Assembly (NCBI RefSeq): GCF_004362895.1
Contig: NZ_SNXI01000005.1
Span: forward strand, 124,001 to 188,000
Reading direction: 5' to 3'
DNA: 64,000 nt
From: Idiomarina aquatica
GTDB lineage: Bacteria; Pseudomonadota; Gammaproteobacteria; Enterobacterales; Alteromonadaceae
Shown: piece by piece, positions 10,134-12,324 of the stretch
How the letters are laid out: the number at the start of each line of letters is the position of its first letter
How positions within the stretch are numbered: position 1 is the first letter of the stretch
Notes under the pieces: model-generated
What the model was told of the DNA's origin: nothing
Databases searched by the model: none
What the model saw: the letters and a program-made list of their open reading frames with translations, nothing else
Translations under genes and position numbers: made by a program

Positions 10134-10994
10134 ATGAGCCAAGTATTAGATAATTTGTTAAACCTTCTGCAGTTAGAAACTATCGAGCAAGGTATTTACC
10201 GCGGCAATAGTCAAGATTTGGGCTTTGGCGCTGTGTTTGGTGGTCAGGTTATTGGCCAGGCCCTGTCGGCAGCTAAAGAGACACTGCCTCCTGAACGTGG
10301 CGCGCACTCGTTTCACAGTTACTTTTTGCGCCCGGGTGATGCTAAAAAGCCAATTGTATACGATGTAGAAGTCATTCGTGATGGCAAAAGCATCTCCACG
10401 CGTCGCGTCAAAGCGATACAAAACGGCAAACCCATTTTTCATATGACCGCTTCGTTTCAGGAAGACGAGGTCGGCTTTGAACATCAGGACACCATGCCGG
10501 AAGTCCCCGGTCCTGAGGGGCTGGTATCAGATATTGATATCTACAAAGAGCATCAGGATTTAATTCCTGCGCCGATCCGTAATAAGTTTATTTGCGAAAA
10601 GCCAATCGAAATGCGCTTTGTGACCGCCTACAACCCGTTCAAACCGGAAAAAGACGAACCCAAGCGCTACGTTTGGCTTAAAGCCAACGGCGAAATGCCG
10701 GCTGACCTGCGCGTGCACAAATACCTATTGGCGTACGCCTCAGACTTTAACTTTTTGCCCACGGCATTGCAGCCACACGGCATGAGCTTTGCACAACCGA
10801 ACATGCAAGTTGCAACCATTGATCATGCCATGTGGTTCCATCGCGATTTCCGCATGGACGATTGGTTGCTCTATGCTATCGACAGCCCATCGGCGAGCGG
10901 TAATCGTGGCTTAGTCAGAGGGCAAATCTATACACGTGACGGCACACTGGTTGCGTCTACTATTCAGGAAGGTGTGATGCGGCGCCAACGCTGA
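10134..10994 (+). CDS. tesB: Acyl-CoA thioesterase II
   Basis: The 286-residue double-hotdog thioesterase hydrolyses medium- and long-chain acyl-CoA. The N-terminal hotdog carries [12 protein letters not shown] and the C-terminal hotdog carries [12 protein letters not shown] and the QEGVMR end. These contain the Asp and Gln of the TesB catalytic network. Length equals E. coli TesB (286). The GGGAAG ribosome site lies about 10 bases before the ATG. The stop codon lies in the loop of the first hairpin of the array that follows. Confidence 0.92.
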
Positions 10995-11123
10995 CGCGTT
11001 GGCTTGCTTGGCGCTGCCGTGCAGCTTGCTTGGCAGCGCTTCGCGCTTTGCTTGACATGGCCTGTGGCCATTTGCCTGGCGGCACCGTTGGTGCCTTGAA
11101 CGCCGTGACCTTGGCTTAGGTCA
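10984..11123. repeat. Tandem array of six small hairpins separated by exact 9-base linkers
   Basis: Perfect stems occur at 10984-11003 (GCCAACGC, TGAC loop), 11013-11025 (GCTGC, CGT), 11035-11047 (AGCGC, TTC), 11057-11071 (ATGGCC, TGT), 11081-11095 (GGCACC, GTT) and 11106-11123 (TGACCT, six-base loop). Linkers are TTGCTTGGC, TTGCTTGGC, TTGCTTGAC, TTGCCTGGC and TTGAACGCC, each 9 bases; one extra G precedes the last hairpin. Stem sequences differ entirely while linkers are conserved. The array fills the gap between convergent tesB and nupC, and its end hairpins contain both stop codons. No known repeat family is recognised. Confidence 0.88.
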
Positions 11124-12324
11124 GTGACACGAAGAAGCCAGCGATTGCGGCGCTCATCATGTTTGCCATTGTTGCCGCGAGTAAAGCGCGCATGCCCAAA
11201 CGAGCTATATCATGGCGTCGACTTGGCGCCATACCGCCTAACCCACCGAGCAGTATGGCGATTGAGGAGAAGTTGGCAAAACCACACAACACGAAAGTAA
11301 TAATGACTTGCGAGTGTTCACTCAGCTGATCTTTGTAGTTAACAAAGTCCAGGTAGGCGACAAATTCGTTAATAACCAGCTTCTGGCCAATAAAGCTACC
11401 GGCAATTTGTGCCTCATCCCAGCTGATACCCAGCACATAAGCCACCGGCTGGAACACATAACCAAAAACTTCCTGCATGGTTAGTCCGGGGTAACCAAAC
11501 CAGCCACCGACCCAGCCAAATATGCCATTCACCAGAGCGATTAACGCAACAAAGGCTAACAGCATCGCACCCACGTTCATGGCAAGCTGAAGACCACTGG
11601 AAGCCCCTGATGCGGCTGCATCAATGACGTTGGCAGAGTTGTCCTCGACTTCAACTTCTTCCAGATCATTACGCGGAGTTTCGCACTCCGGAATCATCAT
11701 CTTAGCCATCAAGAAGCCCGCGGGCGCAGCCATGAAGCTTGCTGCAATAAGGTATTTAAGCTCAACTCCGACTCCTGCATAGCCGGCCAATACCGACCCG
11801 GATACCGAGCTCATACCACCGACCATGACAGCAAATAACTCACTACGGGTCATGGTGCCGATAAAGGGTCTGACCATCATCGGCGCTTCCGTTTGGCCGA
11901 CAAAAATATTAGCTGCCGCCGACATCGACTCGGGGCGGCTGGTATTCAGTAATTTTTGTAAGCCGCCACCCAGAATACGAATAATCCACTTCATGATACC
12001 AAGGTAATAAAGCACCGAAATCAGTGACGAGAAGAAAACGATAACGCTGAGTACCTGGATAGCAAAAACAAAGCCAAACTCTTCTGATGCCAGCCCCCCA
12101 AACAAAAAGTTAATACCGGCGGAGGTGTAGCCAATAACCGCCGAGACGCCTTGAGCAAAGCTAAACAGCATCTCGCGCCCAAGGGGCACGTAAAGCACAA
12201 AGCCGGCAAGTGACATTTGAATAGCAAACGCACCGATAACGGTGCGCCAGCGAATATTCTTGCGATTGGTTGACAGTAAGTAAGCAACCAGAAGGATAAC
12301 GGCAATGCCGAGTAAACTATTCAT
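11116..12324 (-). CDS. nupC: Concentrative nucleoside transporter, NupC family
   Basis: This 402-residue inner-membrane protein has CNT-family features: an N-terminal helical bundle, [11 protein letters not shown] in the core, and NEFVAYLDF in the second half. These motifs hold the nucleoside- and ion-binding residues. It imports nucleosides with Na+ or H+. It follows udk by 11 bases on the same strand, so uptake and phosphorylation of uridine/cytidine are coupled in one operon. Its stop codon lies in the last hairpin of the array. Confidence 0.9.

Follow-up and report, generated by a model that had tools for sequence, protein, structure and literature searches.

A string of six hairpins between tesB and nupC as a member of a scattered family of arrays kept by shape more than by stem letters

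Between two convergent genes of the stretch of DNA analysed here (64,000 nt, hereafter the window), a string of six perfect hairpins is located at positions 10984-11123 (Table 1). The array was confirmed and is part of a scattered family that is kept by its shape more than by the letters of its stems. The unit of this family is a short, mostly perfect hairpin combined with a constant linker of 8-9 nt. As the best explanation, we tentatively regard the window array as a lone and non-canonical copy of a dispersed DNA repeat that is coded by its structure and akin to REP and MITE elements, which would have spread in single-stranded form via a REP-associated tyrosine transposase (RAYT); in our estimation, this has somewhat less than an even chance of being correct.

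The six perfect small hairpins listed in the preliminary description of this DNA were borne out, and the stop codons lie in the two end hairpins as it had stated, with the tesB stop in the loop of the first and the nupC stop within the sixth. Its count of five linkers of 9 bases holds for linkers 1 to 4, each of which comprises exactly 9 nt and fits TTGCYTGRC, but not for the fifth, which is longer by one base and does not fit. Likewise, its statement that the stems share no sequence applies within the window array, whereas stems that occupy the same position in different members of the family are related and diverge through paired changes. Hairpin lengths of 20, 13, 13, 15, 15, and 18 nt render the window array non-canonical. 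It is solitary, lacks the terminal inverted repeats of paired-arm elements (see below), and no partner arm was found for it. Both the RNA and the DNA fold of the array beat 200 of 200 shuffles. The unit at 11048-11080 around hairpin 4 matches a covariance model of linker-hairpin-linker units (R1) with an E value of 2.1e-10, being itself one of the 13 units used to build this model. An interpretation of the linker as an uptake sequence was dropped due to its lack of enrichment, with 24 one-mismatch copies in the window vs. 25 expected.

Table 1. Locations of the window array and its flanking genes, of the flhF arrays, and of the GTAG-type repeats
Feature	Location	Strand	Remarks
tesB, acyl-CoA thioesterase II	10134..10994	+	runs toward array; stop codon 10992-10994
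hairpin 1	10984..11003	+	8 bp, loop TGAC; 5' arm is the tesB end, TGA stop inside loop
linker 1 TTGCTTGGC	11004..11012	+	pattern match
hairpin 2	11013..11025	+	5 bp, loop CGT; same stem in G004
linker 2 TTGCTTGGC	11026..11034	+	pattern match
hairpin 3	11035..11047	+	5 bp, loop TTC; same stem in G004
linker 3 TTGCTTGAC	11048..11056	+	pattern match
hairpin 4	11057..11071	+	6 bp, loop TGT; same stem in G004
linker 4 TTGCCTGGC	11072..11080	+	pattern match
hairpin 5	11081..11095	+	6 bp, loop GTT; same stem in G004
degenerate fifth linker TTGAACGCCG	11096..11105	+	10 nt, read from sequence
hairpin 6	11106..11123	+	6 bp, loop of 6; 3' arm is the nupC end, stop codon 11116-11118
nupC, nucleoside transporter	11116..12324	-	runs toward array
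flhF array L267	G000:C13:66960		variable linker of gene
flhF array L263	G001:C1:163064		variable linker of gene
flhF array L232	G004:C1:632340-632500		variable linker of gene
GTAG-type repeat sites	L040:2922; L043:2895, 3848; L047:2802, 3096; L218:1740, 2059; L232:5809; L281:8162		

An orthologous array occurs in Idiomarina aquatica SN-14 (G004). Its stems of hairpins 1-5 differ from those of the window at 2 of 60 sites, which represent a single compensated pair in hairpin 1 (A-T vs. G-C), and the four linkers and the loops differ at 3 of 36 and 6 of 16 positions, respectively; hairpin 6 and the fifth linker are more divergent and were left out of this comparison, and linker 1 was aligned such that it differs by one base in SN-14, where it may be one base shorter. 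The tesB genes of the same two genomes differ at 77 of 114 fourfold sites, counted where the first two bases agree. Stems and linkers of the window array are under strong constraint between the two species. The SN-14 copy (L189) contains short duplications at both array ends, and a tandem duplication of the tesB stop region, absent from the window, is situated directly before the array. No linker match was found in the tesB-nupC gap of 17 other species. When all 19 species were read, 10 of these 17 array-less ones displayed a perfect hairpin of at least 6 bp on or between the two stops.

Regarding genomic placement, 28 clusters in addition to the window array were assigned with a simple ORF caller and with cluster limits set by hand. 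Of these, 18 lie between tandem, five between convergent, and one between divergent genes, and four within an ORF, of which only the flhF case was accepted. According to a hand count, 19 of the 28 begin within 50 bp behind the 3' end of a gene. This location, the single divergent case, the position of the window array between convergent stops, the hairpins at the tesB-nupC stops of array-less species, and the retention of stems and linkers vs. saturated synonymous sites would all agree with an RNA element, whose hairpins at mRNA 3' ends would terminate or protect the transcript, with a protein on the linkers and the pairing selected in RNA. Such an element is at odds with arms that occur in both orientations, often within one element, with one site inside an open frame read as flhF, and with Rfam, which at gathering score reports nothing but tRNAs in 15 loci (89 kb). 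Furthermore, no T-tract terminator site was detected in 10800-11300, a weak result given that shuffles average 0.6. We rate an RNA element as rather unlikely, the RNA 3'-end reading being possible for the window copy in particular. The bidirectional transcript end put forward in the preliminary description is thus possible with respect to the 19 clusters near 3' ends, but simple termination leaves the conserved linkers unexplained.

The arrays searched for following the preliminary description are present elsewhere in the own genome of the window (G000, 2.95 Mb in 63 contigs) and in SN-14. The pattern of two linkers spaced by 10-25 nt yields 10 matches in G000 vs. none for a reversed control. 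Nine of the 10 enclosed stretches are palindromes, some with a mismatch or bulge, and the tenth (C2:205374) is poor (partly judged by eye). Among 60 genomes, own included, seven contain the pattern; outside G000 and G004 the matches enclose non-palindromes by eye, as does one of 10 in G004. With model R1, for which 150 candidates were scored per genome, 41 matches were obtained in G000 and 36 in G004. Single marginal matches (E 0.001-0.05) in each of six other genomes of the genus fall in array-free DNA and were taken for chance, and 11 genomes gave none. R1 and the pattern search together revealed no array in 17 of the 19 genus members, though G001 contains the second linker dialect described below. 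A model of whole arms matched at least 13 times in each of G000 and G004 and, under stricter filters, not at all in the other 293 of 295 family genomes.

Runs of three hairpins with similar linkers but dissimilar stems were searched for, which returned four rows from 319 kb of G000, representing three arrays including that of the window, and, from 255 kb of G004, 10 rows in which some arrays are listed twice; both samples were largely picked for known arrays. No match was obtained in 200 kb of G001, 120 kb of G013, 80 kb of G003, and in shuffles, and the sole match in 857 kb of diverse contigs belongs to I. aquatica. A scan of contigs for linkers yielded at least 117 loci, almost all of them tandem coding-like repeats considered as random linker matches. 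L099 and L185 passed the bare cut and were rejected as tandem copies of a single unit, and some other loci passed on one side only. Among the scan matches listed, the only accepted arrays are those of L178 (I. aquatica, NZ_PIPS01000001.1), which are the same as in G004; the scan may omit own-genome records and may have missed organisms. Plasmid and phage records gave no match to one full element used as query. In the literature searched, no paper was recognised as describing such a hairpin-array family, which is no proof of its absence from print.

Canonical arms consist of four hairpins in fixed order and occur singly or as inverted pairs around a core (18 arms read). With one mismatch permitted per linker, the layout is a terminal linker (e.g., CGCTAGGC), 15-16 nt, TTGCYNGGC, 19-21 nt, TTGCYNGGC, 15-21 nt, TTGCYNGGC, 11-14 nt, and TTGC. 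The second hairpin is typically composed of six pairs, a bulged base, two pairs, and a loop such as TTC. Arms are often arranged face to face, and the core between them may be a tRNA, a long palindrome, a pair of REP-like hairpins, or, in the case of G004, a gene resembling tnpB. Full elements comprise approximately 280 bp and are 68-80% alike on alignment. Most paired-arm elements have CGCTAGGC or CGCTTGGC at their start and the complement at their end, and three full elements are 69-74% alike to their own reverse complement. Full elements are predicted to fold into a trunk with opposed hairpins and paired left and right linkers. This trunk pairing is not claimed, since no covariation was observed at variable positions of left vs. 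right linkers (15 of 36 equal vs. a shuffled mean of 13.9; six elements, linkers typed by hand). No target-site duplication was seen by eye and no clean empty site was established, the array-less species being too diverged.

Three further features were observed in the vicinity of arms or arrays. In G000, an approximately 200-bp repeat with inverted arms (L055; C2:198862-199064 and 205131-205327, 81% alike) occurs beside or between hairpin arms. In G004, two segments of approximately 980 bp (C1:1138836-1139815 and 1155795-1156749) are 96% alike, 17 kb apart, and both contain a hairpin array. A TnpB-like gene and a TnpA fragment are situated between near-identical inverted arms (93% over 192 bp) at L042 (G004:C1:914500-919000).

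According to hand counts, the R1 matches are clustered, with 31 of 41 of G000 on contig C2 (292 kb of 2.95 Mb) and 34 of 36 of G004 on C1:0.49-1.16 Mb, and these two regions are collinear. Arrays were found in both species at eight of 11 compared places, two of which are halves of one element, in addition to the window. At 44k, 73k, and C33:4k, one of the two species shows at most a stub of an array within the DNA read. For rlmN-pilF and 266k/677k, arrays of the same build occur in both species with largely different stems; at 270k/674k the stems are nearly identical. Due to the fact that most compared sites are common to both species, recent movement is rare at best. The concentration in one chromosome part and the shared places would fit chromosome-organising sites, in which a DNA-binding protein reads linkers and cruciforms, and the predicted trunk with opposed hairpins could be seen in the same light. 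We consider this very improbable, regarding the 17 of 19 genus members without an R1 or pattern array and the lack of left-right linker covariation.

Considering 80 linker-chosen segments of G000 and G004, 495 of 523 stem pairs are Watson-Crick, and the other 28 comprise five G·T, six A·C, and 17 of other types; eight of 90 segments had been removed by hand as chance or overlapping matches, and the totals derive from 80 of the remaining 82 with defined register. Selection at the RNA level would favour G·T over A·C, which is not seen, so that an RNA role is not favoured, albeit from small numbers. The protein-bound RNA suggested in the preliminary description thus finds no favour either.

In 14 of the 18 arms (four with longer third hairpins were left out), 95.7% of 347 pair cells are standard, with 54 cells changed on both sides vs. 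four on one side. The covariation score of the arms was reached by none of 500 shuffles, and slid partners drop to 28-51%; further pair types are no better than shuffles (196 of 500). An alignment of 13 units (A1; 10 found by linkers alone and three picked with hairpin detection or the window) contains 21 cells changed on both sides vs. none on one side, and is not beyond shuffles for both-side-changed pairs (61 of 500) or further pair types (38 of 500). The stem covariation for which the preliminary description had asked is hence present across copies, and the stems are kept at the orthologous SN-14 site. Mean pairwise identity in 36 of 41 15-mers (those with at least five pairs) is 0.58 for stems, 0.55 for loops, and 0.81 and 0.87 for linkers, the latter values being inflated by the search pattern.

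The loops follow a rule. In linker direction, a TNC loop closed by C-G occurs in 56 of 80 hairpins (80 of 82 units counted) and a GNA loop in none of the 80, the copies being related and thus not independent. By comparison, C-G closing with TNC or GNA was observed in nine of 218 other perfect triloop hairpins in the analysed stretches of the two genomes. Loops that read C(TNC)G imply that the opposite strand reads C(GNA)G. Passages of PMC5815330 describe C(GNA)G DNA triloops as stable, with a preference for the C-G closing pair, and a passage of PMC10527192 attributes an extraordinarily stable hairpin to the segment CGCGAAGCG. The lack of a G·T excess together with this stable triloop rule favours folding at the DNA level over an RNA role. 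In case of the window array, TNC is found in one of the four triloops of hairpins 2-5, and likewise in one of four in the SN-14 copy; this low share suggests another use there.

A second dialect of the same build, with the linker GGCTGTTT, is present in G000, G004, and G001. Three exact GGCTGTTT linkers spaced by 10-22 nt were found among 60 genomes in these three and in G031, where the repeats are non-palindromic and were rejected; inexact arrays of other species could be missed by exact linkers. The units are mostly palindromes of 13-15 nt, with inverted array pairs at some loci, clearest at L264, and they obey the same loop rule (15 of 19 odd-length units and no GNA; 19 of 22 units counted). 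Within a gene read as flhF (SRP54-type GTPase domain), dialect 2 in G000 and G001 and dialect 1 in G004 occupy the same site, in a stretch that is variable across the genus, and the arrays keep the frame open.

In G001, equal units of 21 nt are repeated, along with an imperfect stem that was copied with them. As this one clear case of recent growth copies a unit plus its imperfect stem, and canonical arms consist of four hairpins in fixed order with related stems, growth by addition of a linker and a new palindrome, as proposed in the preliminary description, is unsupported as stated, and a palindrome new at birth was rejected. The G001 units and the lack of a G·T excess would be in agreement with a passive DNA repeat that has neither function nor transposase, in which slippage multiplies units and template switching of replication in hairpins keeps the arms perfect. 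Creation and maintenance of hairpins by template switching are reported in PMC8794818. Slippage does not explain linkers that are alike across copies, partly owing to the search pattern, and kept between species (3 of 36), and dispersed paired-arm copies share the ends CGCTAGGC or CGCTTGGC and their complement. The loops are not inverted (GNA in 0 of 80), which counts solely against switching through the loop. On balance, a passive repeat seems quite unlikely.

Under the preferred reading as a REP/MITE-like repeat, the element would have spread as folded single-stranded DNA and would be read by a hairpin-binding RAYT (a Y1 transposase). According to passages of PMC8266576, TnpAREP recognises single-stranded REP, and GTAG is crucial for its activity. 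For a folded single strand read by a RAYT of the family's own, shape and linker would matter and stem letters would not. The window copy may have been kept as the common 3' end of both convergent transcripts. The own genome encodes two RAYTs above the NCBIfam cut-off, and the candidate enzyme would be the clade of G000:C13:4636-5163 (clade b). Clade b occurs in the three array-bearing genomes G000, G004, and G001 at 64-65% identity and is absent from the other 16 of the genus, in which RAYTs are at most 44% identical to it; eight of the 19 genomes have no match at all. Since G000, G004, and G001 share their highest TesB and RlmN identities with one another and thus look like closest relatives, the co-occurrence can be due to one shared ancestry and is weak evidence. 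Cores contain REP-like hairpins, and the motif beside clade-b RAYT genes also occurs in the core of the element at G000:C2:255k, as well as at two places without a tied array (L232:5809 and L281:8162).

A GTAG-type repeat (complement of ...CCGATGGCTACCTACGAT...) was observed beside clade-b RAYT genes, in the core of a tRNA-holding array element, and at two other places. GTAG repeats around the RAYT on C2 of G000 were set aside as a family separate from the arrays. The Y1 fragment near the G004 array at L042 was rejected as a source, as it sits with a TnpB-read gene and was taken for an IS605-type insertion.

Movement of an element was not seen in the compared sites. Terminal inverted repeats such as those of the paired-arm elements are not known as a usual feature of single-strand Y1 elements, and the array hairpins lack the GTAG head of REPs; both points count against the REP/RAYT reading. 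It is tempting to speculate, yet unlikely, that the family represents mobile DNA with shape as its heritable identity, namely strings of exceptionally stable DNA mini-hairpins, with C(GNA)G on one strand, spaced by a linker word that has at least two dialects at the same site of different species (flhF), which a dedicated RAYT clade would both spread and keep by reading the geometry of linker and hairpin instead of stem sequence.

Since repeat families are usually detected by sequence likeness, one in which pairing and spacing persist despite changing stems can easily escape notice. Provided that the DNA-level reading is true, the paired stem changes would represent a natural mutagenesis of the needs of a hairpin-reading transposase, and the loop rule would connect the biophysics of DNA triloops with repeats of a living genome. 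That the window copy is so deeply conserved suggests that repeats of this type can turn into a retained component of a gene pair.

Among known systems, an intrinsic terminator differs from the window array by the T-tract after its stem, with the reservation made above on the shuffles. Mitochondrial hairpin repeats (double-hairpin elements, sponge RHE, Volvox palindromes) are similar in that they consist of short, dispersed hairpins, interpreted as mobile or selfish DNA in passages of PMC2800124 and PMC2670323, but belong to organelles and not to bacteria; stems of the sponge RHE are described there as conserved and the loops as variable, whereas in the arrays stems vary in pairs, many loops are TNC, and linkers are kept.

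MITEs and small bacterial mobile repeats are sequence families. Similar to MITEs, Correia, RUP, ERIC, and Rickettsia palindromic elements, the arrays form dispersed, non-coding inverted-repeat elements of approximately 280 bp, with one array in an open frame, and terminal inverted repeats as in MITEs are found in paired-arm elements. Unlike these, the arrays keep pairing and linkers while stems change; no target-site duplications were seen by eye.

With REP, BIME, and REPIN sequences and their RAYTs, the arrays share short G+C-rich hairpins of mostly extragenic location in inverted pairs, and GTAG repeats lie beside one of the two RAYTs of the own genome. For REPs, sub-families with alternative complementary stem residues are known from passages of PMC3733652, in which G·T pairs are described as often observed, whereas the arrays display no G·T excess. 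In contrast to REPs and REPINs, the palindromes of the arrays have no adjacent GT(A/G)G head; TTGCYNGGC or GGCTGTTT borders the hairpins, and GTAG repeats exist apart from them and in one core (970k). Moreover, the arrays string approximately 4-6 different hairpins together by a constant linker of 8-9 nt, with the terminal repeat CGCTAGGC. Considering these likenesses and differences, the family can be regarded as a variant of the REP/MITE kind of repeat with a structural rule at the DNA level.
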